Of a DNA stretch of 64,000 nt, positions 6,049-47,000 are shown piece after piece. This DNA comes from Lutibacter sp. (GTDB lineage Bacteria > Bacteroidota > Bacteroidia > Flavobacteriales > Flavobacteriaceae), in NCBI RefSeq assembly GCF_030692605.1, contig NZ_JAUYUD010000106.1, forward strand, positions 1 through 64,000, given 5' to 3'. Under the pieces are notes generated by a model, which was not told the origin of the DNA, did not search any database, and worked only from the letters and a program-made list of their open reading frames with translations. Position numbers and translations under genes: made by a program. Numbering within the stretch: position 1 is the stretch's first letter; each line of letters begins with the position of its first letter.

Positions 6049-9000
6049 TTACAAAAAACCCTGTGAATGAAAATCATTAGAAATATTTTCTTCTGTTTCT
6101 ATAGTATTATTGTATTTAAAATCTTCTTTAAAAATTGCTGCCTTATTGCTTTTTCCATCAATAATAATGGTTAAAGGGTTATTAAATTTTATATGTCTTA
6201 TGTAGGTGTCTTCAAAAACTGCAGTTTGATTGTCTAAATAATTTAAATCGAAAAAACCGTCACCTATAAAAGGATTAATTGTTATGTATCCCATTTTAAA
6301 TGATGTTAAATTTTGGAAAAAATGAGTTCCTTGACTTGGATCTATTCTAAAATTATGAAGTCCAGATTCTACAATTATTTTTGCAGCTGAAATTTGCGCC
6401 CAAATTACAGGAATTCCCAACCAAGGATCACTAGAACCCCAGCGTCCTGGACCTATTAAAATATAGTTTTTGTTGGCTTCAATAAATTTTTTATTAATTT
6501 TATCTACTGCCACTGCTATATCTCTTGTATTAGCTGGATTAAAGGTTTCGGGCTTAACATATACAATATCACAAATGCCATCATGTTTTCCATTTCCTAA
6601 TGCCGACTCAGAGTATATAATAGTATCTGAATTGTTAAAATTTTCTGGAAGATTGCTCGAAACATCAACACTTTCAACAATTGGTCTTATTTGTAAAAAA
6701 CTGAATTCTTTAGGTTGTCCTTCGGGAACATCTAGCTTAACCGCAAATTCAATTTCAATTGGATTTCTTATTTCTCGCTGTCCAATTCTTAATAAATCTT
6801 GAAGTATTTCAGGTAATGGAAATGTATTATATTTTAATATGTTATCGAAAGTTATTACTCTAATTCCATTATGTAAAACACCTGGTTTAATTATATTATT
6901 TTGTAAATCGTATGTTGAAGCTACAAATTTTAGCGAACCATGTTTTTCGGCATTTCTTATGGTAATTTTCTTTTTATTGATAGACTCATTTGTTGAAGCT
7001 ATATAACTGTCTGGATTTAAATCTAAACCATAAAAAAACTGTTGTGTATCTCTTTGTGTGGATCCAGGTGATGAAAGTTGTAATATCTTCTTTGAATGAT
7101 AAGGTGAAAAACGTAATGTTTTACCTCCACCTACAACAATTTCTCCTAATCCTAATGCAATGTGTGCAATACCTTCATTTGGTTTTTCGTTTCCAATTGG
7201 ATAAAAATTAATGGAACGTGCAACACCTGAAATATTTGGATAGTACACATCATCATATTGTTTACCTGTTACTTCTTGTAAAATAACAGCCATTTTATCT
7301 TCTTCAAAAGTATGGGAAATGGCTTTTAAATAAGCCTTGGTCCCTTGGAAAAAAGCAGATGCAATAACAGATTTAATAGCGTTAGAGGTCATTTCTAACA
7401 TTTTTATTTTTTGCGTATTAGGTATCATGTATGTTGCAAAAACACCTGCAAATGGCTGAAAATGAGAATCTTCTAAAACGCTTGACGACCTTATAGCAAT
7501 AGGAGCTTTGGTTGTTTTTAAAAATGCTCGAACATCATCCATCACCCATTTTGGTAATGATTTTGAAATAAATTCATTTAAAATTTCTTCATCGTTATTA
7601 CAGTTTGCAACAAAATTAATTAATTCGTGCTCTTCCATAAACTGATCATACACTTCGGTACTTAATACCACGGTTCGAGGTATAGAAATGTTTACCTCTT
7701 TATACTTGTTAAATAATTTATGGCGTTTTAAAAACGAATCTATAAATGCTAATCCTCTTCCTTTTCCTCCTAATGAGCCCTCACCAATTCTGGCAAAGCC
7801 TAAATATTCATCATATCGGTATTTATTAAATTTTACAATAACACCTCTTGATCTATAAACACGATATGCTTTAATTGCATTAATTAAAAAATCTCTAATT
7901 TGCTCTCCATCTTCAAAATCATCATATTCAACAGTACTAAACAAATTTGCTAAGGAAAAAAGGGCTCTTGATTTTAACCACTTAGAATATTCACTTCGTT
8001 TGGCGTGATATACAATTGAAGCTTCAGAAACAATGTCTAATGTTTTTTGAAAATTATTTAAATCCTTTACGGTTGCCAAAACTTTCATTTGTTCTGGATC
8101 CCAAAATTCAAAAGCGCCAAATGAAAAATATTTTGTAATATATTTTTTAATATCATCTCCTAGAGTTTCGGAGTGTTTATATAAAAATTTTCCTTTTAGT
8201 TCTAAAGCTCTTCCTTCATTTTTGTCATCGGATGATTGTATTAATACCGGAAAATAACGTTTATAATTACGCGCAAATTTTAAAAATTCAAAACCAGCTT
8301 CGGCATCCCTTTTTCCGTTTTTAAAATAACTAACATCCGAAATAACTCCTAAAAGATTGTCTTTATACTTTTCAAACAATTCGACACCTTCTTCAAAAGT
8401 AGTAGCCAGCAAAATTTTTGGTCGACCTCTCATAAGCATCATCCCTCTATGTTCATTTAGACCTTCAGACATAAATGAACGAGTTTGCTTTAAAATAACT
8501 TTATAAATAAGAGGTAAATATCTTGAATAAAACCGAAGTGAATCTTCAACCAATAAAATGGCTTTAACGCCAATTTGATTAATATCTTTTTCAGCATTCA
8601 TTCTATCTTCAGTAAGTTTTATAATTGCTAAAAAAATATCAACATTCCCATTCCAATGAAAAACAAAATCAATTATACCTGTATTTGCCTTATTAATTTT
8701 TTCTCTTAATTGAGATGAGTAATGACTAAGCGCCGCAATAGGCACAGTTGGAAATTCCTGTTTTATTATCTTAGACGTTTCAAATGCTTTGTAATCTCCA
8801 ATATCCAGCCATGTAATTACTAAATCTATTTTATCTGAATTAAGAACTTTTATGGCTCTTCTTGCTGAATTGGCATGAATAAAACTTGGTGGATATCTTA
8901 AACTTAAGGCAGTATATTCATTAAAAATACGTTCGTCAATTCTACCATCTTCCTCTAACATATAGAAATCATAGTTAGAACAAACTATTAAAACTTTATT

Positions 9001-9081
9001 TATTCTATTTTGCATTAATTCATTAAATGCAACATCTTCAAATTCATATTTTTTTAAATCTGGTAATGGATTTTTGCTCAT
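6049..9081 (-). CDS. receiver plus PEP-synthase-type ATP-grasp protein
   Basis: A 1010-aa Bacteroidetes-type protein. Residues about 29-160 form a degenerate receiver-like domain with no acidic pair. Residues about 173-320 form a receiver with its key residues in place: the acidic pair in LLVEDSLRFY, an aspartate in GVISDVSYF, a serine in LIQSS and a lysine in LYKHSE. A pyruvate-phosphate dikinase N-terminal ATP-grasp domain follows (SLGGKGRGLAF, then IAIRSSSVLED, then LQIRPIVE). The swivelling phosphohistidine domain and the PEP TIM barrel of real PEP synthase are absent; the last ~190 residues (including IGPGRWGSSDPW) are unassigned. So it is unlikely to make PEP alone. I infer a phosphorelay-controlled nucleotide-binding or phosphotransfer protein. 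It is divergent from pheS. Confidence 0.75.
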   Translation of the reverse strand: MSKNPLPDLKKYEFEDVAFNELMQNRINKVLIVCSNYDFYMLEEDGRIDERIFNEYTALSLRYPPSFIHANSARRAIKVLNSDKIDLVITWLDIGDYKAFETSKIIKQEFPTVPIAALSHYSSQLREKINKANTGIIDFVFHWNGNVDIFLAIIKLTEDRMNAEKDINQIGVKAILLVEDSLRFYSRYLPLIYKVILKQTRSFMSEGLNEHRGMMLMRGRPKILLATTFEEGVELFEKYKDNLLGVISDVSYFKNGKRDAEAGFEFLKFARNYKRYFPVLIQSSDDKNEGRALELKGKFLYKHSETLGDDIKKYITKYFSFGAFEFWDPEQMKVLATVKDLNNFQKTLDIVSEASIVYHAKRSEYSKWLKSRALFSLANLFSTVEYDDFEDGEQIRDFLINAIKAYRVYRSRGVIVKFNKYRYDEYLGFARIGEGSLGGKGRGLAFIDSFLKRHKLFNKYKEVNISIPRTVVLSTEVYDQFMEEHELINFVANCNNDEEILNEFISKSLPKWVMDDVRAFLKTTKAPIAIRSSSVLEDSHFQPFAGVFATYMIPNTQKIKMLEMTSNAIKSVIASAFFQGTKAYLKAISHTFEEDKMAVILQEVTGKQYDDVYYPNISGVARSINFYPIGNEKPNEGIAHIALGLGEIVVGGGKTLRFSPYHSKKILQLSSPGSTQRDTQQFFYGLDLNPDSYIASTNESINKKKITIRNAEKHGSLKFVASTYDLQNNIIKPGVLHNGIRVITFDNILKYNTFPLPEILQDLLRIGQREIRNPIEIEFAVKLDVPEGQPKEFSFLQIRPIVESVDVSSNLPENFNNSDTIIYSESALGNGKHDGICDIVYVKPETFNPANTRDIAVAVDKINKKFIEANKNYILIGPGRWGSSDPWLGIPVIWAQISAAKIIVESGLHNFRIDPSQGTHFFQNLTSFKMGYITINPFIGDGFFDLNYLDNQTAVFEDTYIRHIKFNNPLTIIIDGKSNKAAIFKEDFKYNNTIETEENISNDFHSQGFL

Positions 9082-34989: not shown

Positions 34990-37125
34990 ATGGAAGCAGA
35001 TAAAATTACACAGTTGTATTTTAGTGATGTTAATGAACCCGTTCGTTACGATCGAAGAAAATTTTTAAAACAATTAGGAAAAGGAATTATAGTTATATTT
35101 TCTTTAAGTGAATTGTCTTTATTACAAGGATGGAGTCAAAATAATACCCAAGAAAAACAAATAGATTTCAATGCTTTTTTACGTGTAAATGAAGACGGAA
35201 CTGTAGATTGCTTTACTGGTAAAATTGAAATGGGACAAGGTATTATTACCTCATTAGCTCAAGTATTAGCAGAAGAACTAGAAGTTGGAATAAATGATGT
35301 AAAAATGATAATGGGAGATACAGATTTATGTCCTTATGATGCTGGAACTTGGGGTTCTTTAACCACCAGATTTGCAGATCCTGTTATTAGAGCTGCAGCT
35401 GCTGAGGCAAGAGAAATATTAATGGATATTGCATCTAAAAAGTTAAATGTGCCAATTGAAAATTTAGTTGCAAAAAATGGAGTTATTTATGTAAAAGATG
35501 ATTCTTCAAAAAAGATAACTTATGCTCAATTAACTAGAGGTCAAAAGATAGTTCAAAGTCTTACCAAAAAACCAGAAATTAAAAAAGCGAAAGATTTTAA
35601 ACTTATTGGAAAATCAATTATTAGTACCGATGCTGTTGCAAAAGTTACTGGAAAAGCACAATACACTGGAGATATAAAATTACCTGAAATGGTTTATGCA
35701 AATATTGTTAGATCAAGCGTATTTGGCTCAAAAAAAATAAGTGTAGATTCCAGTGGTTTAAAAGAATTTAAGGGAATTGAGTTAATTGATGATGGAGATT
35801 TAGTTGCAGTTGTACATTCTGATCCAGAAGTATCTTATAAAGCTTCTAAAAAGGTTAAAGTTATTTGGGATGAACCAAAATTAAATGTAGATAGCGAATC
35901 TATTTTTAATTATTTAGAAACCAACATAACATCTAGCTCTGTATTTGAAAATAGTGGTGATTTAGAGCAAGGAAGAACCAATTCAGCTAAAATTATTGAA
36001 GCAAAATATCTTGATGGTTATAAAGCTCATGCTGCAATGGAAACGCATTCCGCTACATGCCATTTTCAAGAAAATAAATTAATTATGTGGGCTTCAACTC
36101 AAACACCCTTTGGTACTCGAGCTGAATTAGCTAAAACATTTAATATGCCGGAAGAAGATGTAATAGTTAAACAAATTTTTGTTGGTGGTGGTTTTGGTGG
36201 AAAAATTTATAATCAACAAGCCGTAGAAGCTGCTAAAATTTCTAAAAAATGCGGTAAACCAGTTCAATTAGTTTGGAGTAGAAGAGAAGAGTTTATGTAT
36301 GATATGTTTAGACCGGCTGCAATTATAAATACCAAAGCAGGTGTAGACAGCTATGGAAAACTAAATTTATGGGAATTCGATATTTATTGCGCTGGAACTA
36401 GAGGTACCAAATTGTTTTATAATGTACCTCACAATAGAACTCGAATGTTTAACAAAAATGATGTTCATCCATTTGGAACTGGTGCTTGGAGAGCTCCTGG
36501 AAATAATACTACAACATTTGCCAGAGAATCTCATATAGATGTAATGGCTCATTCAGTTGGTATTGATGCGTTGCAATTTAGATTAAACAATTTAAAAGAT
36601 GATAATATGCGCGCTACTTTAGAATTGGCCGCAAAAACTTTTAATTGGGATAAACCTAAGAAAGAAGGACATGGCTATGGAATAGCTCTTGGAGAAGACG
36701 CAGGAACCTGTGTAGCTTTAATTGCAGAAGTATTTGTTAATAAAAAAACAGGTGAAGTTAAACCTATACGAATTGTTTGTGGGCAAGATATGGGACAAGT
36801 TGTAAATCCGCATGGTGCAATTTTACAAACAGAGGGAGGAATAACAATGGGATTGGGTTATGCGTTGTATGAAGATATTGAATTTACTGGAAGAACTATA
36901 AAATCTTGGGGATTTAGTAGTTATAAATTTACACAATTTTCAAATACACCTCCAATAGAATGTGTATTTATAGATAAAATGGATTCAAAACCACAAGGAG
37001 GCGGTGAACCAGCAATTATATGCGTTGGTGGCGCAATTGCAAATGCTGTTTTTGATGCTTGTGGCGCTAGAGTTAATAGATTGCCAGTTACACCTAAAAG
37101 AATATTAGAAGCGCTTAAAATTTAA
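34990..37125 (+). CDS. molybdopterin catalytic subunit, Tat-exported (IorB-like)
   Basis: The 711-aa large subunit of the xanthine dehydrogenase family. A Tat signal sits near the N terminus (DRRKFLKQLG, R22-R23, then a hydrophobic segment to ~45 ending QGWSQN). Cofactor motifs include EMGQGIITSLAQVLAEE, FVGGGFGGKIYNQQAVEA, GTGAWRAPG and QGGGEPAIICVGGAIANAV with the likely active-site glutamate. The two-subunit layout and signal resemble periplasmic isoquinoline 1-oxidoreductase or aldehyde oxidoreductases. The [2Fe-2S] subunit lacks its own signal and would be co-exported. Substrate unknown. Confidence 0.9.
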   Translation: MEADKITQLYFSDVNEPVRYDRRKFLKQLGKGIIVIFSLSELSLLQGWSQNNTQEKQIDFNAFLRVNEDGTVDCFTGKIEMGQGIITSLAQVLAEELEVGINDVKMIMGDTDLCPYDAGTWGSLTTRFADPVIRAAAAEAREILMDIASKKLNVPIENLVAKNGVIYVKDDSSKKITYAQLTRGQKIVQSLTKKPEIKKAKDFKLIGKSIISTDAVAKVTGKAQYTGDIKLPEMVYANIVRSSVFGSKKISVDSSGLKEFKGIELIDDGDLVAVVHSDPEVSYKASKKVKVIWDEPKLNVDSESIFNYLETNITSSSVFENSGDLEQGRTNSAKIIEAKYLDGYKAHAAMETHSATCHFQENKLIMWASTQTPFGTRAELAKTFNMPEEDVIVKQIFVGGGFGGKIYNQQAVEAAKISKKCGKPVQLVWSRREEFMYDMFRPAAIINTKAGVDSYGKLNLWEFDIYCAGTRGTKLFYNVPHNRTRMFNKNDVHPFGTGAWRAPGNNTTTFARESHIDVMAHSVGIDALQFRLNNLKDDNMRATLELAAKTFNWDKPKKEGHGYGIALGEDAGTCVALIAEVFVNKKTGEVKPIRIVCGQDMGQVVNPHGAILQTEGGITMGLGYALYEDIEFTGRTIKSWGFSSYKFTQFSNTPPIECVFIDKMDSKPQGGGEPAIICVGGAIANAVFDACGARVNRLPVTPKRILEALKI

Positions 37126-37163
37126 ATTTATTAAAAGGTTATAATGTAAAATTAGAACTACAG

Positions 37164-37256
37164 AAAACGTCATCGCGAAGTTTTGATAAAAACTAAAGAA
37201 ATCTGCCAATTAGAAACAGATTACTTCTTCGTTATCACTCATCGTAATGACGTTTT
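37164..37256. repeat. REP-like palindromic element
   Basis: AAAACGTCAT at 37164 onward has an inverted partner ATGACGTTTT near 37247-37256; inside are AAATCTG and CAGATT, the same inner arms as in the 43.4-kb repeats. It lies between two convergent genes (3' to 3') and may help terminate both. Confidence 0.55.
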
Positions 37257-37264
37257 TGAAAATT

Positions 37265-38836
37265 TTAGAATGTAGCAATCGCTTTTTGAATTCTTCTAAT
37301 TGTTTCTTGTTTCCCAATCATTTCAGCAATATCAAATAGGTGAGGACCTTTCATGTCTCCAACCAAACTTAATCTAAAAGGTTGCATCACTTTTCCAAAT
37401 CCAATTTCTTTAGAAGTAATCCATTCTTTAACAGCAGTTTCAATGTTTTGAGATTTAAAATCTTTAATAGATTCAAGAACAGTAATTAGCTCTTTCATTA
37501 TGTCTGAGGTATCTTCTTTCCAGTTTTTAGAGGCAGCTTTTTCATTATAAGAAGTTGGAGCTACAAAAAAGAAACTGCTTAATTCCCAAAAATCACTTAC
37601 AAATGTGGCTCGCTCTTTTATTTGTGAAACAACTTTGGTAATGTAATCAAGGTCAAATATGTGTGCGTCATTACGAGGAGTTGACGACGAAGTAATCTCA
37701 TCTTTCACAGCAAGGTGTTTTTCCACAATAGGAGCAAATAATTCAGCCAATTCGGCATCAGATTTTAACAACATGTATTGTTGATTAAACCAATTTGTTT
37801 TATCAGGATTAAATTTAGCACCACTTTTACTTACACGTTCTAATGTAAATGCTTCACAAAGTGCTGACAAGGTAAATAGTTCTTGTTCAGTTCCAGGATT
37901 CCAACCCAATAAAGCCAGCATATTTATAAAAGCATCGGCAAAATAACCATCTTCTTTATACCCTCTTGAAATCTCGTTTGTTTCTTCGTTTTTATATTCC
38001 AAAGGAAAAACAGGAAATCCTAATTTATCACCATCGCGTTTGCTTAATTTTCCTTTTCCTACAGGTTTTAAAATAAGTGGTAAATGAGCAAATTCAGGAG
38101 CTTCCCAGCCAAATGCTTCATATAAGGCTATGTGTAAAGGGAGCGATGGTAACCATTCTTCACCACGAATTACGTGGCTTATATCCATTAAATGATCGTC
38201 AACAATATTTGCTAAATGATAGGTTGGCATCCCGTCACTTTTAAACAAAATTTTATCGTCTAAAATATCTTTTCTAAATGAAATTGGACCACGAATTATA
38301 TCTATAGATTCTATAGTTTCTTGTTCACTTTCGGGTTCATACATTTTAAACCGAATTACATATTCTTCACCGTTTAAAAGGCGTTTTTGCACTTCATCTT
38401 TAGAAAGTGAAATAGAATTTGTAAGTTTTGTTCTGTTATGCCAGTTATAGATAAAAGTTTCCCCTTTTGCTTCGTAGTCTGTTCTATGAAAATCTAATGC
38501 TGAAGTAGTATCAAAACAGTAATAGGCATTACCGTTTTCAATTAATTGATCAGCATATTTTTTATAGATCTCTTTTCGATCAGATTGTCGATAAGGACCG
38601 TATTTTTCATTTTTATTTGGACCTTCATCAAAAGGAATGTTACACCAATTTAAAGCGTCAACTATATATTTTTCAGCATTAGCAACATATCTTGTTTGGT
38701 CTGTATCTTCAATTCGTAAAATAAAAGTACCCCCATGTTTTTTAGCGAATAAATAATTAAAAAGGGCAGTTCTAACACCACCAATATGTAAAGGTCCTGT
38801 TGGACTTGGGGCAAATCTCACTCTAACATTTTGCAT
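37265..38836 (-). CDS. gltX: glutamyl-tRNA synthetase with a repeat-derived insertion
   Basis: The 523-aa class I synthetase charges tRNA-Glu. The HIGH-type box is PSPTGPLHIGG near residue 10 and the KMSKS-type box is KLSKRDG. It is slightly longer than typical bacterial GluRS (about 465-510 aa). Residues about 379-391 (EITSSSTPRNDAH) are encoded by a segment, 37666-37702, that reads as a REP-like CGTCATTACGAGGAG..GACGACGAAGTAATCTCATC. The frame stays open, so the element looks tolerated as a surface loop. A -7 element lies upstream. Confidence 0.95.
   Translation of the reverse strand: MQNVRVRFAPSPTGPLHIGGVRTALFNYLFAKKHGGTFILRIEDTDQTRYVANAEKYIVDALNWCNIPFDEGPNKNEKYGPYRQSDRKEIYKKYADQLIENGNAYYCFDTTSALDFHRTDYEAKGETFIYNWHNRTKLTNSISLSKDEVQKRLLNGEEYVIRFKMYEPESEQETIESIDIIRGPISFRKDILDDKILFKSDGMPTYHLANIVDDHLMDISHVIRGEEWLPSLPLHIALYEAFGWEAPEFAHLPLILKPVGKGKLSKRDGDKLGFPVFPLEYKNEETNEISRGYKEDGYFADAFINMLALLGWNPGTEQELFTLSALCEAFTLERVSKSGAKFNPDKTNWFNQQYMLLKSDAELAELFAPIVEKHLAVKDEITSSSTPRNDAHIFDLDYITKVVSQIKERATFVSDFWELSSFFFVAPTSYNEKAASKNWKEDTSDIMKELITVLESIKDFKSQNIETAVKEWITSKEIGFGKVMQPFRLSLVGDMKGPHLFDIAEMIGKQETIRRIQKAIATF
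37666..37702. repeat. palindromic element inside gltX
   Basis: CGTCATTACGAGGAG at the left and GAAGTAATCTCATC at the right match the GTCATTGCGAGGA / GAAGCAATCTCATC ends of REP-like elements common between genes in this lineage. Length 37 bases, in frame with gltX. Confidence 0.55.
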
Positions 38837-38856
38837 TGTAAATGAATTTTAAAATG

Positions 38857-38864
38857 CAAAGATA
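38857..38864 (-). promoter_or_regulatory. putative -7 element for gltX
   Basis: Minus-strand TATCTTTG 20 bases upstream of the gltX ATG; no -33 at expected spacing. Confidence 0.35.
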
Positions 38865-38895
38865 AATTAACCAAAGAAATACACACCTTTATAAT

Positions 38896-38925
38896 ACAAA
38901 AAAAGGCTACAGGAATGTAGCCTTT
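38896..38925 (-). terminator. terminator of the 54-aa minus-strand gene
   Basis: AAAGGCTACA (38902-38911) pairs perfectly with TGTAGCCTTT (38916-38925) around GGAA. On the minus strand it ends in a T run of seven, so it would stop transcription of the small gene at 38998-39162 before gltX. Confidence 0.75.
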
Positions 38926-38997
38926 AAAAACGTTACCCAAAAACGATTTTTTAGAAATAGAGAATGTCAATCAACTATTTTAAAGTGTGGGTGACAA

Positions 38998-39162
38998 TTA
39001 ATATAATGTTCTGTTTGTGCTATTTTTAAATTCAATATCTGATCCCGCTTTAGTAATTATCTGATTCAATATATATAAGTTTAGTAAAAGAGCAAAAAAC
39101 ACAATTAATCCTATACCAAATGTTTGGATGCTTTTTTGGTTTAGGTATTTTAATATTTTCAT
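38998..39162 (-). CDS. small single-TM protein, unknown
   Basis: A 54-aa ORF: basic N terminus (MKILKYLNQKS), one hydrophobic helix (about residues 15-35, GIGLIVFFALLLNLYIL) and a polar tail. It lies alone in the ~500-bp gap between gltX and the 142-aa gene, with a strong terminator downstream, which supports it being transcribed. No family recognised. It is divergent from the 7TM locus that follows and might belong to it. Confidence 0.6.
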   Translation of the reverse strand: MKILKYLNQKSIQTFGIGLIVFFALLLNLYILNQIITKAGSDIEFKNSTNRTLY

Positions 39163-39265
39163 GTGTTGCTAATTTTATTTCTTTTTCAGATACCGAAGGT
39201 AGAACTTATTATAATTGTTTAAAAAGGGATTTACACTGTTAAATATGGGGAAAAACACCCTTTTT

Positions 39266-39273
39266 TATTTTTG
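39266..39273 (+). promoter_or_regulatory. putative -7 element for the 7TM locus
   Basis: TATTTTTG matches TAnnTTTG 58 bases upstream of the ATG at 39331. Local sequence is very T-rich, so chance is possible. Confidence 0.35.
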
Positions 39274-39330
39274 TTTTAAAATTGAAGCAAATACACTAAT
39301 TTTAACATTTAAATAAATATATATATAATT

Positions 39331-39759
39331 ATGAAATTAATTACACCACAAGAGGCAAAAGAATTAAATCAAAATTTTATTAAAACGCGCTCAAAAGAAT
39401 TAGATAAAATTGTTGAAAGAGAAACTGGAAATCCAACTAAAAAAGATGCCATTTCTAGTTGGTTTTCTTTGGAAGAATTAAAAGAATACATTGCGTATGT
39501 TGAAGCGCAAGGAAAAGCCAAAAATATTACTGTAAACGGGTTGCGCGTATATTTTGGAGCCTATGCTAAAAACGATAAAAAAGAAGATAAAAAAGCACTT
39601 TCTACTGTGTTTTTTGTACCCACCCAAGCTGCAGTAGGTTCTTTAAACAAAGAAGGTGTTGAGGGCGGAGAAGGCGGTTCTGATGTGGATAGCATTGATG
39701 GAATGAATTACGGAACATCAGGAAATCCTCCACAAGCACCTTATCCTCAGATACAATAG
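39331..39759 (+). CDS. conserved hypothetical protein with C-terminal YPQ tail
   Basis: A 142-aa soluble protein. An N-terminal helical region (about 1-70, including KKDAISSWFSLEELKEYI) is followed by VNGLRVYFGAY, a Gly-rich acidic linker (GVEGGEGGSDVDSIDG) and the tail MNYGTSGNPPQAPYPQ near the C terminus. No signal peptide or TM. The tail recurs almost exactly in the 35-aa ORF at 40395. It ends 8 bases before the first seven-TM gene and is likely co-transcribed with it. I believe similar proteins exist in other flavobacteria, but I know of no function. Confidence 0.75.
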   Translation: MKLITPQEAKELNQNFIKTRSKELDKIVERETGNPTKKDAISSWFSLEELKEYIAYVEAQGKAKNITVNGLRVYFGAYAKNDKKEDKKALSTVFFVPTQAAVGSLNKEGVEGGEGGSDVDSIDGMNYGTSGNPPQAPYPQIQ

Positions 39760-39767
39760 TAATTTTT

Positions 39768-40391
39768 ATGTGGGGTATAATAATTAATATATTACTGTTT
39801 ATTACAGTAATTATAGGAACTGTTACATATAAAAAATATAATCATACATTTTTAAAATATTTTTTATTTTTTTTATTCTATGATTTAATAAATGAAACAA
39901 CTGCGTTTTTTGTTGGTAATGGATTAAAAAAGAACACGTTTATTTTGTATAATATTTACATGTTTGTAAGTGTTTTATTTTACTTGTTTACAATCTACCA
40001 TTACACCAAAAAGAACAAAGTTTATTTACCATTATTAATTATTTTGTATATACTTTTTTGTTTAAGTAATGTTTTATTTTTTCAAAAATCAATTCAAACA
40101 AGCCAAACATATTCGCTTATAATAGGTAGTTTTTTTATACTTATAGGTGTTATTTATTTATTTGTAGAACTTTTAAAGAGTGATGATATATTAAAGATTA
40201 ATAAAATGCTTTTGTTTTGGTTAAGTATTGGAATTTTAATTTTTTATGCAGGTATTGTTCCAATATATGTAATGATAGAATTTCTAAATTACAAAGGAAT
40301 ATTTAAATATATTTTAGTCGCTTTAAATGTAATTATGTTAAGCTGTTTTAGTATTGGTTTTATTGTAACTAAAAAAGAATATAATAAATAA
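39768..40391 (+). CDS. seven-TM protein A (paralogue of 40525 and 41257 proteins)
   Basis: The 207-aa polytopic protein has about seven hydrophobic helices and almost no soluble domain. The last two helices carry the conserved W-[LI]-S-x-G-I-L-I-F..P-x-x-V..E..N..G and ..GF[IM]V-[ST]-KKEYN pattern shared with the two downstream paralogues. It ends in KKEYNK. It resembles the 7TM part of a receptor without any output domain. A histidine kinase lacking a sensor domain lies downstream, so I infer a possible sensor partner. No family name assigned. Confidence 0.7.
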   Translation: MWGIIINILLFITVIIGTVTYKKYNHTFLKYFLFFLFYDLINETTAFFVGNGLKKNTFILYNIYMFVSVLFYLFTIYHYTKKNKVYLPLLIILYILFCLSNVLFFQKSIQTSQTYSLIIGSFFILIGVIYLFVELLKSDDILKINKMLLFWLSIGILIFYAGIVPIYVMIEFLNYKGIFKYILVALNVIMLSCFSIGFIVTKKEYNK

Positions 40392-40394
40392 TGT

Positions 40395-40502
40395 ATGGAT
40401 AGTAAGAGTTTAACATGTTTGGAAGTAGATGATATTGATGAAATGAATTACGGAACATCAGGAAATCCTCCACAAGCACCTTACCCTCAAACCGAAGTTT
40501 AA
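40395..40502 (+). CDS. 35-aa mini-ORF repeating the YPQ tail
   Basis: Starts at ATG 40395 in the same frame as, and one codon after, the stop of 7TM protein A. Its product (MDSKSLTCLEVDDIDE, then MNYGTSGNPPQAPYPQ, then TEV) repeats the tail of the 142-aa protein; the DNA is almost identical over about 55 bases (39702-39756 against 40438-40492). It ends 22 bases before 7TM gene B. It could be a real small peptide or a truncated remnant of a duplicated 142-aa gene. The frame is intact and has its own start. Confidence 0.5.
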   Translation: MDSKSLTCLEVDDIDEMNYGTSGNPPQAPYPQTEV

Positions 40503-40524
40503 ATTTAAAAAATAATGCTCCTTT

Positions 40525-41157
40525 ATGGTTATTAGAGCTTTTTTAATTTTATTAGTTATTTCAATAACTTTTTTTGTAGCCATATTTAACTTTAAAAAGT
40601 TTAAAACAACACCTATAAAATATTTTATATATTTTATAGGTTATGTTTTTATTAGTGAAACTATTGCAAATATTTATTTATCAAAAGGAGTAAATACAGT
40701 TATTATAAATAATGTTTATAGCATTGCATATACTTTTTTCAATTTGTTTTTTTATTCGATTTTAATTAAAAATAAAAAGTCAAAAAAAATTGGTTATATA
40801 ATGATGTTTTTCTTTGCAATTAGTTTGATAATTAATCAGTTATATTTTCAAAAATTTGAACATAGGTTGCAGACTTATACATTCATTTTAGGATTATTTT
40901 TGGTAACATTTTTAGTTTTTATTTATTTTCTTGAAATTATGAATTCAAATAAAATTATTTACGTTACAAGGCTTTCTGAATTTTGGATTAGTACTGGAAT
41001 CATTATTTTTAACTTTGGTTTTATTCCTGTTTTAGTGGTTGCCGAACTTATAAAATGGGAAGGTGTATATCACTATATATTATTATTTGTAAACGTAATT
41101 ATGTATGGGTGCTTTATCACAGGTTTTATGGTAAGTAAAAAAGAATATAATGTTTAA
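40525..41157 (+). CDS. seven-TM protein B
   Basis: The 210-aa paralogue of the protein at 39768, sharing the C-terminal signature ..FWISTGIIIFNFGFIP..ELI..G.. and ending KKEYNV. About seven hydrophobic helices. The last eight bases of the gene overlap the start codon of the next mini-ORF. Function unknown; context suggests part of the same membrane signalling locus. Confidence 0.7.
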   Translation: MVIRAFLILLVISITFFVAIFNFKKFKTTPIKYFIYFIGYVFISETIANIYLSKGVNTVIINNVYSIAYTFFNLFFYSILIKNKKSKKIGYIMMFFFAISLIINQLYFQKFEHRLQTYTFILGLFLVTFLVFIYFLEIMNSNKIIYVTRLSEFWISTGIIIFNFGFIPVLVVAELIKWEGVYHYILLFVNVIMYGCFITGFMVSKKEYNV

Positions 41158-41260
41158 TTTTATAGCAAGTAAAGTCAGTAGTAATATTGAAGAATTTTAT
41201 GGGTTAAATAATGGCTCAGTAGTTCAATTACTTTCAGCAGTATATCCACAATTAAATTGA
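41150..41260 (+). CDS. 36-aa mini-ORF ending YPQLN
   Basis: Starts at ATG 41150 overlapping the stop of 7TM gene B, and ends in TGA at 41258-41260, overlapping the TTG start of 7TM gene C. The C terminus (AVYPQLN) resembles the APYPQ tails of the two upstream proteins, and an FYGLNNG precedes it. The start ATG is part of a sequence (AATATAATGTTTAA) found at the end of both B and C genes, so the reading frame could be fortuitous. Confidence 0.4.
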   Translation: MFNFIASKVSSNIEEFYGLNNGSVVQLLSAVYPQLN

Positions 41261-41895
41261 AATATTTTAATCTAATATATCCTTTAATTTATTTGATTAC
41301 AATATTGATTGTAGTTGTTAATTTTGATAAAATTAGAAGTAGTAATTTATTAAAATTACTACTAATTTTCTTAGTCTATTCATTTATAACAGAATTGATC
41401 TCCTTTGTAATTGGAGTAATTTTTAGAAAGGGCACATTTTATATATATAATATTTGGAATTTAGCTAATAGTTATTTTTATTTTTATTTTTTTTATAAGT
41501 TAATCAACAATAAATTATACCGTAATTTTATTAAAACTATTATATTGATTTATACATTAATTTCTATTATCGATATTGCTTTTTTTACAAATTTTATTTT
41601 AGAACATTTGAACTATAACATTATAGTTTCAAGTATTTTAATTGTTCTTTCGGTAATGTTGTATTTTATTGAATTATTAAAGAGTGATGCGGTTTTAAAA
41701 TTAAATACTTCAATCTATTTTTGGATAAGTATAGGGGTTTTATTTTTTAATATTGGCATGATTCCGATTTGTGTAATTGCCGAACTAATAAATTACAATG
41801 GTGTTTTTGATATTATAATTTTAAGTTTAAACATAATAATGGCTGGTTGCTTTATCACAGGTTTTATAGTAAGTAAAAAAGAATATAATGTTTAA
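41257..41895 (+). CDS. seven-TM protein C
   Basis: The 212-aa third paralogue, with the signature YFWISIGVLFFNIGMIP..ELINYNG and GCFITGFIVSKKEYNV at the end. The start is a TTG that overlaps the mini-ORF stop. About seven hydrophobic helices. It is 3 bases upstream of the histidine kinase gene, so the three membrane genes, the kinase and the regulator appear to form one operon. Confidence 0.7.
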   Translation: MKYFNLIYPLIYLITILIVVVNFDKIRSSNLLKLLLIFLVYSFITELISFVIGVIFRKGTFYIYNIWNLANSYFYFYFFYKLINNKLYRNFIKTIILIYTLISIIDIAFFTNFILEHLNYNIIVSSILIVLSVMLYFIELLKSDAVLKLNTSIYFWISIGVLFFNIGMIPICVIAELINYNGVFDIIILSLNIIMAGCFITGFIVSKKEYNV

Positions 41896-41898
41896 TTT

Positions 41899-42687
41899 AT
41901 GGGACAAACTGAAATTCAAATTTTAATTTTTGTAACCACTATTATAGTTTTAATATTGGCTATTACATTAATTGTGTTCTTTTTTTACTTTCAACAGAAA
42001 AAGACAGCTTATTTATTAAAACAGCGCGAAACACAATTACTTTTTGATGAAGAAATTACCAAGTCTAAATTAGAAATTCAAGAACAAGCACTTCAAAATA
42101 TAAGCTGGGAAATACACGATAATGTGGGGCAGTTACTTTCAGTTGCAAAAATGCAATTGAATATGGTACAATTAACATTACCTATAGAACAGCAAGAAAA
42201 AATTAGAGAAACGGGAGAAATTATTGGTAAAAGTTTACAAGAACTGCGTGGTTTGGCAAAATCTTTAAATCCAGATACTATTAAAAATAAGGGTTTAATA
42301 GAATCTATAACCCATGAAATTGAAAGGTACAATCGCTTAAATTTTATTAAATCTAATTTTGTAATTTCTGGGGAAACTTATAGTTTAACCAACGAAAAAG
42401 AAATAATTTTATTCAGAATATTACAGGAATTTTTTAATAATACTTTAAAACATGGAAAAGCAAAAATATTAAAGGTAGACCTTGTTTATCAACCTTCATT
42501 TTTAGAAATTTTTATTGAAGACAATGGCGTTGGTTTTGATGTTTTAGATACAGATTCACAAAAAGGAATTGGCCTTTTAAATATGAAAAGTAGAACCAAT
42601 TTAATTGGCGCCACGTTCAATTTAAACTCGAAAGTAAACGAAGGCACTAAGTTATATATAAAATGCCCAAAAGAAAAAGAGAGTTAA
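41899..42687 (+). CDS. HisKA_3 histidine kinase with a minimal sensor
   Basis: The 262-aa kinase has one N-terminal TM helix (about residues 8-30), a short coiled coil, the dimerisation box WEIHDNVGQ with H73, and HATPase motifs (ILQEFFNNTLKHGK, DNGVGFD, KGIGLLNMKSR). There is no periplasmic or PAS sensor domain, so its input must come from a partner; the upstream 7TM proteins are the obvious candidates. It ends 1 base before the cognate regulator. Confidence 0.92.
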   Translation: MGQTEIQILIFVTTIIVLILAITLIVFFFYFQQKKTAYLLKQRETQLLFDEEITKSKLEIQEQALQNISWEIHDNVGQLLSVAKMQLNMVQLTLPIEQQEKIRETGEIIGKSLQELRGLAKSLNPDTIKNKGLIESITHEIERYNRLNFIKSNFVISGETYSLTNEKEIILFRILQEFFNNTLKHGKAKILKVDLVYQPSFLEIFIEDNGVGFDVLDTDSQKGIGLLNMKSRTNLIGATFNLNSKVNEGTKLYIKCPKEKES

Positions 42688-42688
42688 A

Positions 42689-43333
42689 ATGGAAAAAATA
42701 GATATTATTATAGTAGACGATCACATGTTATTTTCTCAGGCTTTAAACGGCTTAGTTTCTCAATTTACACGATTTAACGTACTCAAAGTTTTGAGCAATG
42801 GCAAAGAAGTTGTGGACTATTTTTCGAATAGTAATAAAGAGCCTGAAATTATTTTAATGGACATACAAATGCCCTTAATGAATGGTATAGAAGCTACACA
42901 ATGGTTAAAAGATAATAAACCCGAAATTAAGGTTCTTGCGCTTTCTATGGAGGCCGATGAGGTTACTATTTTAAAAATGCTTCGTGCTGGCGCAAAAGGG
43001 TATTTATTGAAAGATATTCATCCAGATATTTTATTGCATGCATTAAATGAAGTGCACACTTCAGGATTTTATTATACCGAAAATGTAACCAACACACTGT
43101 TAAATTCTTCACCTAATAAAGAAAGCGAAAGACGTATAAAATTAAAAGACAGAGAATTGGAATTTTTGAAGCTCACGGTTTCTGAAAAAACATATAGAGA
43201 AATTGCAGAAGTCATGTTTTTAAGTCCGAAAACTGTTGAAAATTACCGAGAAGCATTGTTCGAAAAATTAGAAGTTAAATCACGTATTGGCTTGGTAATA
43301 TATGCCATTAAAGAAAAAATAGTGATTTTATAA
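42689..43333 (+). CDS. NarL/LuxR-type response regulator
   Basis: The 214-aa regulator has a receiver with the acidic pair VDDH, phospho-acceptor D58 in LMDIQMPLMNG, S86 and K108 (GAKGYLLKD), followed by a LuxR-type HTH (TVSEKTYREIAEVMFLSPKTV). It pairs with the HisKA_3 kinase immediately upstream. Its targets may include the 39.3-kb operon itself. The following 700-bp gap carries three tandem repeats and no obvious promoter partner. Confidence 0.94.
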   Translation: MEKIDIIIVDDHMLFSQALNGLVSQFTRFNVLKVLSNGKEVVDYFSNSNKEPEIILMDIQMPLMNGIEATQWLKDNKPEIKVLALSMEADEVTILKMLRAGAKGYLLKDIHPDILLHALNEVHTSGFYYTENVTNTLLNSSPNKESERRIKLKDRELEFLKLTVSEKTYREIAEVMFLSPKTVENYREALFEKLEVKSRIGLVIYAIKEKIVIL

Positions 43334-43369
43334 TCGCTTATTTTTCTATGAAAATTAGTTCAACGTACT

Positions 43370-43860
43370 AATAAATTAAAGGTAATTAATAGTTTAGAAA
43401 AATAGTCATTGCTAATTTTACTTTTTTTAAGTAAAATGTGGCAATCTCACGATTAATAAACAGATTGCCACACTCGTACCTCATTCGCAAAAGACGTAAA
43501 TAGTTTATATTCAGGTAGTATTGCTCTTTTTTATATCGAACTCACGTTAATAATAAATTAAAGGTAATTAATAGTTTAGAAAAACAGTCATTGCGAATTT
43601 TACTTTTTTTTAAGTAAAATGTGGCAATCTCACAATCAATAAACAGATTGCCACATTCGTACCTCATTCGCAAAGACGTAAATAGTTTATATTCAGGTAG
43701 TATTGCTCTTTTTTATATCGAACTCACGTTAATAATAAATTAAAGGTAATTAATAGTTTAGAAAAATAGTCATTGCGAATTTTACTTTTTTTAAGTAAAA
43801 TATGGCAATCTCACGATTAATAAACAGATTGCCACACTCGTACCTCATTCGCAAAGACGG
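43370..43860. repeat. three 182-bp tandem repeat units (third partial)
   Basis: Units start at 43370, 43552 and 43734 (AATAAATTAAAGG). Each contains three nested hairpins: ATTTTACTT/AAGTAAAAT, the arms GTGGCAATCT/AGATTGCCAC, and TTGCGAAT/ATTCGCAA as outer arms with GTCAT-like ends. Units differ at a few bases (e.g. first unit has GCTAATTTT where others have GCGAATTTT). No ORF inside. The family is related to 37164-37256. The remaining 43334-43369 and 43861-44032 hold nothing recognisable. Confidence 0.75.
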
Positions 43861-44032
43861 AATCGACTGATATTTAGAAATTAAAGTTTCATATTATTAA
43901 TTGAATTGGTTCTAATTGAATTTAGGTTATACTATTCTTTAACCGTTTAGGTTTGTTTTTTTGACTGCCTTTAGATAATTTATCTTATTATTTTAAGTAA
44001 ATTTATCAGCTACAACTTGTTAACTACTAAAA

Positions 44033-47000
44033 TTGAATTCAATAAACGAAATACAACTCAAATTACAACAGTTTATAAATAAATACTATTTAAATGAATT
44101 GTTAAAAGGCATGTTGCTGTTTTGCTCCATTGGTTTATTGTATTTTATTTTTACACTTTTAATCGAACATTTTTTATGGTTACAGCCAGTTGCTCGTACT
44201 CTTTTATTTTGGGTTTTTATTGGGGTAGAATTGTTGTTGTTTAATAATTACATTTTAAAATCTATTATTAAATTAGTTGGATTAAGAAGTGGAATTTCCA
44301 CAAAAGAAGCGGCAAAAATTATTGGCAATCATTTCCCAGAAGTAAGTGATAAGCTGCTTAATATGATACAGCTAAAAGAATTGTCGCAAGATTCTGATTT
44401 GGTGTTGGCAAGTATCGATCAAAAGGCAAAGCAATTGGTTCCAATTCCTTTTAAAAGGGCTATTGATTTTTCAAAAAATAAAAAATACGTACCGTATGCA
44501 GCTATTCCAATTTTATTTTTAGTTGGGGCTTATATATCTGGAAATCAGTTTATAGTAGGTGATAGTTTAAATAGAATTGTGCACTATAAAACAGCTTTTG
44601 AAGCACCTGCTCTATTTAGTTTTATTGTTGAAAATAAAGTTTTATCCGTAAAAGAGGGTGATGATTTTACCTTAAAAGTTGGTATTAAAGGTTCGGTTAT
44701 TCCTGAAAACCCGTTGATAATAATCGATGATGAACCATTTTATTTAGAAAGTGAATCTTCAGGAAAATTTAAATACACCTTTTCCAAATTAAAGAAGGCA
44801 GTTTCATTTCATTTTGTGGATGGAAAAGTCCGTTCAAAATCGTATGAAATTGCACTAAAAACTGTTCCAGTAATTGAAGAATTAAAAATGGTGTTAGATT
44901 ATCCTAATTACACCAATATTAAGGATGAAATTATATTGAATTCGGGTAATTTAAGTGTCCCAGCTGGAACAAAAATCACATGGATTGTAAGCACTGCTAA
45001 AACGGAATCATTGCAATTTATAAGCGATATCGGTCATTCTCAACCTTTTCAAATAGAAAAGGAAAATCACTTTAGGTTAATGCATACCTGCATGAAAGAT
45101 TTTAATTATAGTATTGGAACTACCAATAGAAACTTTAAAAATCACGAGGTGCTGGATTTTAAGATTCATGTTATAAATGACGAATTTCCAAAAATTCAAA
45201 TGGAGTCCAATCTAGATTCTATTCGTAACGAGCCAGTTTTATTTGTTGGACAGGTAAGTGATGATTATGGTATTTCTAAAGTAAATTTTATTTATTACAC
45301 TACCAATAAACCTAGCATTATTTCTACTGTTTCAGTTAGTGTTCAAAAAGGTTTTATTGCCGATGTAGCTTTTGTTGTACCAGAAAATTTGAAATTGAAA
45401 GAAGGCGAAAATTATGAAATGTATTTTGAAGTATTTGATAACGATGGAATACAAGGAGCTAAAAAGAGTAAGAGTAAAATATTCTCGTTTTATAAGATGA
45501 CCAAAGATGAAAAGGATATTGCAATGTTGAAAGATCAAAAGAATCAAATTGACGAAATGAGCAAATCTTTGGATAGATTTAAAAGAAGTAATAAAGAGGA
45601 AGAGGCTTTTAAAAATGCGCTAAAAACTAAAGAAAATTATAATTGGGACGATTTAAAAAAATTAGAAGATAATCTAAATCGTCATAAAAAATATGAACAG
45701 CTTTTTAAAGAATTAGGAGAACAATTTAAAAGTACGGTTCAAAAAGATTTTGAGAACGAAAAACTAAATACAGATAGCAAAGAGATAGAAAAAAGAATTT
45801 CTGAGAATCAGGAATTGATGCAGCAAAATAAATTATTGGATGAATTAAAGAAGTTGGCTGAAAAAATGGACAACGAAGGGATGATGCAAAAAATGGATGA
45901 TTTGGTTCAAAAGAATAAACGAAATGAAAAATCGTTGGAACGAATTTTAGAGCTTACAAAAAGATTTTATGTAGAACAAAAAATGAATAAAGTAAGTGAA
46001 GATTTACTAAAATTATCTGACGAACAGTTAAAAATTGCTGACAATCAAGTAAAGGAGAAACAAAGTGAATCGCAAGAAAGTATCAATAAAAAATTTAATG
46101 AAATTGAAAAGGATTTAGAGGAACTCAACAAGGAAAACGATAAACTGAAGCGACCTATGGATATTCCTGAGGTTAAAGACGATGTAGAGGAGGTAAAAAA
46201 AGAGCTGGAGAATCTTCCTAATGAATTGAAGCAACCCAATTCAAAAACGAATAGCAAGCAAAAATTTGCTGCTCGAAAAATGAAAGAGTTAGGTAAAAAA
46301 CTAGAAAAAAACATGCAAGAAGGTGAAAGTGAAATGATGGATGAAAACATTGAAGACCTGAGAATAATAGTTGAAAACCTGATCGAATTTTCTTTTAAAC
46401 AAGAAGATTTATTGAAAAAATATCAATCTAGTAAAGGAAATAGAATCGAGTTTTCCAGAAATCTTAAGGAGCAAAATTTACTCAAGGAATATTTTACACA
46501 TATTGACGATAGTTTGTATGTGCTTTCACTTCGTTTGGTTAAAATGAGCACAGCGATTCAAACCGAAGTTGAAAATACGCACTATTACTTGGATCAGTCC
46601 ATTTCAAATTTTTCTGAAAGTCTTTTTCCGCAAGGCTTTGCCGACCAGCAATTTGTTATTACAGGCGCTAATAATTTAGCAAATTCATTAAGTAATGTTT
46701 TGGAAAGCTTGTTAAATGCGTCTATGAGTATGGGTAAGGGAAAAGGAAAATCAGGTGATTTTTCGTTGCCAGACATTATTAAAAAGCAAGGTGATTTAAT
46801 GAAAGAGGCACAAAAAGGATTGGATAAATCAGGTCAAAAACCGGGAGAGAATGGCAAGGAAAAAGGAGATGGGGAAAATGGAGATCAAGATGGTGACAGT
46901 TTGTACGAGATATATAAGCAGCAAGAAATATTAAAAAACGCGTTGCAAGAGTTGTTAAATAAAAATGGTGAGGGCGGTTCTAAAGGAAATGCACCATTAA

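Follow-up and report, generated by a model that had tools for sequence, protein, structure and literature searches.

A run of eight reading frames on the forward strand of a Lutibacter sp. contig (NZ_JAUYUD010000106.1) would encode a four-part membrane signalling module, a reading that we hold with moderate confidence. The run occupies positions 39331 to 43333 of the 64,000 nucleotide (nt) stretch that we analysed, referred to here as the window. The four parts are a 142-residue protein that we call SP, a seven-transmembrane (7TM) protein, of which the window has three, a histidine kinase and a response regulator; SP and the 7TM protein would provide the input, with the C-terminal tail of SP docking. 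Comparison of 154 distinct Bacteroidota loci, including loci found through the Lutibacter SP and 7TM sequences and eight chosen for tandem 7TM genes, indicates that the core module is four genes: SP, 7TM, a HisKA_3 kinase with one transmembrane (TM) helix and a NarL-type regulator. An earlier note on this DNA had raised the co-occurrence of the 7TM genes with their neighbours, and in Bacteroidota this synteny is very strong. In 130 of the 132 single-7TM loci the gene immediately upstream of the 7TM gene is SP, the two misses (L064, L292) being at contig edges, and in 124 the kinase lies downstream. Five kinase exceptions are found by a contig end (L070, L135, L139, L159, L289). At L144 the kinase is 978 nt further on, beyond an insertion; here a 206-residue frame (7001-7618), presumably a transposase as judged by eye, sits between a truncated 7TM gene and the kinase. 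The last two exceptions, L068 and L069, belong to two Lutibacter genomes with a second, divergent SP-7TM pair, the SP of which is lipoprotein-like. This pair is followed by a His_kinase-type kinase (PF06580, LytS-like) with one TM helix and then by a LytTR regulator, both domains scoring over the Pfam cut-offs, which shows that the input unit can pair with two kinase types.

In Lutibacter, SP, 7TM and kinase are also gained or lost as a block. Of 37 Lutibacter genomes scanned for both proteins, 27 gave matches to both SP and 7TM and the other 10 to neither. A kinase search at E 1e-30 gave no match in any of 11 Lutibacter genomes without SP (those 10 and G060, which was outside the 7TM scan), 7 of which fall short of 90% completeness, while 3/3 controls matched. 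The window operon is flanked by gltX and a gene for a 1088-residue protein, and each flank was present in 25 of 31 relative regions, those without them being short contigs, second loci or other genera. We fetched seven regions from genomes without the module. gltX directly adjoins the 1088-residue gene in four of the six in which it could be placed (L392, L394, L397, L398), an orphan NarL-type regulator stands alone between the two in L393 and L395, and the short region L396 holds a piece of a regulator. Comparison at this site shows that SP, 7TM and kinase come and go together and that the regulator can outlast them. More widely, a 7TM profile gave matches (E 1e-5) in 213 of the 299 Flavobacteriaceae genomes sampled. 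SP profiles matched 45 of 196 genomes of the order (E 1e-3) and 47 of 392 of the phylum (E 1e-5), including other families of the same class; as SP is diverse, these SP counts are lower bounds. In 80 regions around 7TM matches we found SP in 79, the kinase in 79 and a NarL-type regulator in 74, in a sample that is biased to close relatives since it was drawn mostly from the top of the match list, with a few tandem loci picked on purpose. No NarL-type regulator was recognised in the regions of L271, L282, L286, L299 and L300, where the kinase is present.

Within the window the reading frames confirmed the one-strand layout of eight elements described in the earlier note, together with its gaps, overlaps and shared protein endings. 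SP (39331..39759) ends in APYPQIQ and is followed by 7TM-A (39768..40391, 207 residues, ending KKEYNK), a 35-residue open reading frame (ORF; 40395..40502, ending APYPQTEV), 7TM-B (40525..41157, 210 residues, ending KKEYNV), a 36-residue ORF (41150..41260, ending AVYPQLN), 7TM-C (41257..41895, 212 residues, TTG start, ending KKEYNV), the kinase (41899..42687) and the regulator (42689..43333). The successive gaps are 8, 3, 22, -8, -4, 3 and 1 nt; the 35-residue ORF thus starts 3 nt after the 7TM-A stop and ends 22 nt ahead of 7TM-B, and the 36-residue ORF begins inside 7TM-B and runs into the start of 7TM-C. Neither the kinase nor the regulator is unusual in its domains, and the two are paired by adjacency, with a 1-nt gap. 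A single N-terminal TM helix, HisKA_3 (39.6 bits, Pfam cut-off 24) and HATPase_c (38.5 bits, 26.4) make up the kinase, and Response_reg (83.6 bits, 30.2) and GerE (52.6 bits, 23.5) the regulator, which bears out the earlier identification of a kinase without a sensor domain beside a NarL-type regulator. His 73 of the kinase and its neighbours D74 and N75 are invariant in 25 kinases. On the 3′ side of the regulator gene we observed three tandem repeats of ~183 nt each (43366-43855). Each contains an inverted repeat around TGTGGCAATCTCAC...ATTGCCACA, and a 38-nt element of these repeats occurs in the window only at 43435, 43618 and 43799 (allowing up to 8 mismatches).

The 7TM proteins have no sequence-family match in Pfam, NCBIfam or the PDB. 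The predicted fold looks like a GPCR- or rhodopsin-like seven-helix bundle, and the positive-inside rule gave an N-out/C-in orientation in all 102 loci tested; Foldseek returned no significant match. None of the three window proteins matched 7TMR-DISM_7TM (PF07695) at the Pfam gathering score, one of 33 relatives gave a hit at E 0.0077, below any cut-off, and among the matches listed in a PF07695 scan of 60 genomes none fell at a known 7TM position. Profile comparison with hhalign gave a probability of 16.4% over 123 columns against 7TMR-DISM (8.6% in a second comparison), and 0.7% and 0.4% against HisKA_7TM (PF16927); the control, DISM against HisKA_7TM, gave 1.5%. The window 7TM is also a separate gene, not fused to the kinase. 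Two conserved residues, E46 in the Lutibacter set and N65 in the wider set, fall in the outer half of the membrane by the inferred topology, as residues of a pocket might. The 7TM protein is the most divergent part of the module, with a mean distance of 0.72 compared to 0.57 for the kinase. We also observed that the sole 7TMR-DISM_7TM match of this genome lies on the same contig (G000:C57:64471-65064), 21 kb downstream of the module and just past the window, and that L042 carries a 56-residue piece of a third 7TM gene (8878-9048, oriented), which is apparently decaying.

SP likewise has no sequence-family match in Pfam, NCBIfam or the PDB; isolated matches to SP or 7TM in one or two relatives (E 0.005-0.01) are below any cut-off. 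AlphaFold2 (mean predicted local distance difference test score, pLDDT, 75 for SP) predicted a small alpha/beta domain, with residues 128-142 below 50. The protein can be divided into a globular N-terminal domain (~1-100), a variable linker and a conserved C-terminal tail, VDSIDGMNYGTSGNPPQAPYPQIQ, which is probably disordered and is encoded by 39685..39756 within one copy of a direct repeat (D3). In 27 Lutibacter SPs, a set that includes the window and leaves out two divergent second-locus SPs, the 19 residues that end with YPQ follow roughly the pattern IDGLNxGxxGxPPSAxYPQ. An N, a G and three P are invariant in 27/27, and the last residue is Q in 26 and N in one. The mean proportion of synonymous differences (pS) over this tail is 0.65 and that of nonsynonymous differences (pN) 0.23, which points to selection on the peptide and not on the DNA. 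Beyond Lutibacter the tail is mostly NxGxxGxPPxxY; over the whole set, Lutibacter included, 132 of 150 SPs have N followed by PP within nine residues, inside the last 45 residues, and Chitinophaga and relatives keep N..PP with ~20 further residues after it. Comparison of these sequences indicates that the YPQ tail is the Lutibacter form of an SP C-terminus that bears N..PP. In four Kordia or Kordia-like loci (L146, L147, L262, L273) a single 7TM gene is preceded by two or three tandem long SP frames (~240-375 residues), and each of these frames carries an SPPP-type motif in its tail.

The two small ORFs of the window resemble this tail. A profile hidden Markov model (HMM) was built from the tails of 26 other Lutibacter SPs, with the window excluded, and searched against the 3100 six-frame stop-to-stop ORFs (at least 12 residues) of the window. 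It matched SP (E 2.6e-10), the 35-residue ORF (E 2.2e-8) and, weakly, the 36-residue ORF (E 0.02; ...GLNNGSVVQLLSAVYPQLN); with the next best match at E 14, the likeness is not due to chance. Direct DNA repeats agree with this. The 3′ ends of the three 7TM genes form one repeat family with spacings of 766 and 738 nt, and the two strong tails, of SP and the 35-residue ORF, recur at 740 nt, as expected for tandem cassettes. Between these two tails there are no nonsynonymous differences in 37 sites and 2 in 11 synonymous ones over a core of 16 codons (p 0.049, borderline), and over 22 codons 3/52 compared to 4/14 (p 0.032, borderline). Next to the divergence of 7TM-A from 7TM-B (pS 0.50, pN 0.38) these few differences suggest that the 35-residue tail is a fairly recent copy or was converted; it is perhaps also under constraint.

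Other loci place these ORFs in a series. Of the 35 non-first 7TM genes in 22 multi-7TM loci, 9 have a full SP before them, 3 a tail-only ORF (two in the window, one in Gillisia, L138), one a truncated SP (L343) and 22 nothing of the kind. A further tail-only ORF was found in a second Gillisia locus, L139, where the contig stops within the second 7TM gene. A profile that left out L138 and L139, but took in a third Gillisia locus, L148, matched this ORF at E 8.9e-8; the L138 ORF scores E 0.0028. The two Gillisia ORFs retain the motif (pS 0.53, pN 0.27; p 0.05, borderline). Five other Lutibacter loci with two 7TM genes have no such ORF. Comparison across loci shows that SP-7TM cassettes duplicate in tandem and that additional copies of SP can be reduced to an ORF for the tail alone. 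By this comparison the 35- and 36-residue ORFs are truncated SP copies left after duplication of the cassette, the second of them degenerate, and not the separate ligand genes that the earlier note had considered. Its proposal of a multi-receptor signalling module holds as far as the association of a 7TM protein with a kinase lacking a sensor is concerned; the three 7TM genes, judged by the other loci, are a lineage expansion of the usual design of one SP and one 7TM.

How might such a module work? SP and the 7TM protein probably form a sensor unit that drives the kinase. As the kinase has one TM helix and no sensor domain, we propose that the 7TM protein would act as receptor and transducer by contacting it within the membrane, and the kinase would then act on the NarL-type regulator; these contacts, and the direction of signalling, are inferred. 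Docking to the 7TM-kinase complex, whether by SP itself or by a free tail peptide, would take place through the SP tail, and at least the 35-residue ORF, although a cassette remnant, may still serve as a docking peptide. Docking of the tail on the 7TM protein is a guess drawn from gene order and the tail-only ORFs, not from covariation. A bolder version, which we regard as fairly unlikely, is that these are phylum-wide GPCR-like receptors with a peptide agonist built into the system: the N-x-G..PP..Y tail would plug into the 7TM protein, which would drive the sensor-less kinase. In this version the tail would sit on a sensory domain, be it a lipoprotein, anchored in the membrane or cytosolic, or would exist free, as a tail-only mini-protein, and the tail-only genes would be minimal constitutive or competing agonists.

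Several observations weigh against a docking role for the tail. The 22 extra 7TM genes with no tail before them are one. Taken as a whole, the Lutibacter tail is under about the same constraint as the SP domain (pN 0.24 vs 0.26, 12 genomes), the invariance being confined to its core, and 18 of the 150 SPs lack N..PP, with D in place of N, PP lost or no clear tail. In a distance analysis of the 102 loci used for the topology test, with the other components controlled, tail divergence followed the SP domain (partial r 0.44) and the kinase (partial r 0.20), values reached by 0/500 permutations in both cases, but not the 7TM protein (partial r 0.05, reached by 68/500), so that these data do not favour docking of the tail on the 7TM protein. 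Localisation is a further difficulty. A simple rule based on hydropathy and motif, applied from guessed start codons, assigns an N-terminal hydrophobic segment to 56 of the 150 SPs, 42 of these with a loosely lipobox-like motif, and none to 94. The window SP is among the latter; it has no export signal and does not qualify as an exported lipoprotein. In Lutibacter the second-locus SPs are lipoprotein-like and the first-locus SPs are not, and the L287 and L301 operons each hold one lipoprotein-like and one leaderless SP, so a single docking face does not fit all. This mixture is a puzzle for a simple ligand-receptor picture.

The small ORFs may also be functionless debris, the SP copies having been deleted and their 3′ ends kept because the start region of the next 7TM gene must stay. 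We give this close to an even chance, and it is compatible with the four-part module. Partial copies beside a 7TM start are what it predicts, and the degenerate 36-residue ORF, the 7TM fragment in L042, the intermediate look of the truncated SP in L343 and the absence of a tail before most other extra 7TM genes all fit. The substitution patterns of the 35-residue tail and of the two Gillisia ORFs point the other way, at borderline significance, and the low synonymous divergence of the former would also follow from recent copying or gene conversion. It is quite unlikely that the tail acts in cis, its proline-rich nascent chain slowing the ribosome and setting translation of the following 7TM gene in the manner of leader or arrest peptides. 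Such an effect would account for the indifference to SP localisation, for tail-only ORFs that precede 7TM genes, for PP within the last 10 residues of 132/150 SPs and for the short distance between the SP end and the 7TM start, estimated at -4 to 12 nt in 24 of the 27 Lutibacter loci. However, the motif is also present in the Kordia-type SPs that are followed by another SP, tails are intact despite estimated SP-7TM gaps of >100 nt (L051, L266), and in Chitinophaga the motif sits ~20 residues ahead of the C-terminus.

The earlier note had also suggested a processed peptide ligand. An autoinducer role, in which the 7TM protein would detect the released tail on the outside, now seems very unlikely, even though a GPCR-like protein that is the most divergent part of the module, a short conserved C-terminal peptide and tail-only ORFs would suit such a pheromone. 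The 94 SPs without an export segment, the five two-7TM Lutibacter loci without a small ORF and a tail core that is conserved across genera instead of diversifying all argue against it; no protease or exporter gene was seen among the frames listed for 36500-47000 of the window, where no specific search for one was made. A transporter, channel or enzyme function for the 7TM protein, with its regulators encoded in the operon and SP as its cytosolic or periplasmic subunit, also seems unlikely to us. No family match establishes a receptor role, and the Foldseek result leaves room for such a function. Against this stand the lack of a kinase match in all 11 Lutibacter genomes without SP, the pairing of SP-7TM with a different kinase type and the pocket-like placing of E46 and N65.

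The signalling module that we favour has partial counterparts in known systems. In Uhp (UhpC-UhpB-UhpA) the HisKA_3 kinase and NarL-type regulator take their input from a separate polytopic membrane protein, UhpC, which has 12 TM helices and is homologous to sugar-phosphate transporters. The arrangement is alike, but the window has a 7TM protein outside known families plus SP, and its kinase reaches 99.2 bits on the UhpB model, far under the cut-off of 408. The Rcs system has a NarL-type regulator and works through a hybrid kinase. RcsF is described as an outer-membrane lipoprotein sensor and IgaA as an inner-membrane protein. RcsF-IgaA-RcsC/D-RcsB thus shares with our module a lipoprotein sensor, an inner-membrane mediator, a kinase and a NarL-type regulator, and differs in its hybrid kinase and phosphotransfer protein; the window SP has no leader, and lipoprotein-like forms are found in only some relatives. 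7TMR-DISM and HisKA_7TM are also seven-helix bacterial signalling modules of about 200-225 residues. They are usually fused to signalling domains, unlike the window 7TM, which is separate and falls below their Pfam cut-offs. BtsS is described as a 7TM receptor upstream of a kinase. Like other LytS-type 7TM kinases, it combines receptor and kinase in a single protein, in contrast to L068 and L069, where a LytS-type kinase stands beside a separate 7TM protein.

The logic of a separate receptor, an accessory protein, a HisKA_3 kinase and a NarL-type regulator is therefore a known one, as in Uhp and Rcs. What is new is a pair of protein families and a conserved tail that is unusual. The earlier note knew of no described system with this layout, and we also found no description among the papers listed in an open-access library; the module is widespread in Bacteroidota and apparently undescribed. 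Two families with no sequence relative in Pfam, NCBIfam or the PDB would act as the sensing components of a conserved signalling operon, and the natural reduction series, from full SP through truncated SP and tail only to none, offers a way to test what the tail does. The SP-7TM pair is a concrete candidate for the input to sensor-less kinases in Bacteroidota.

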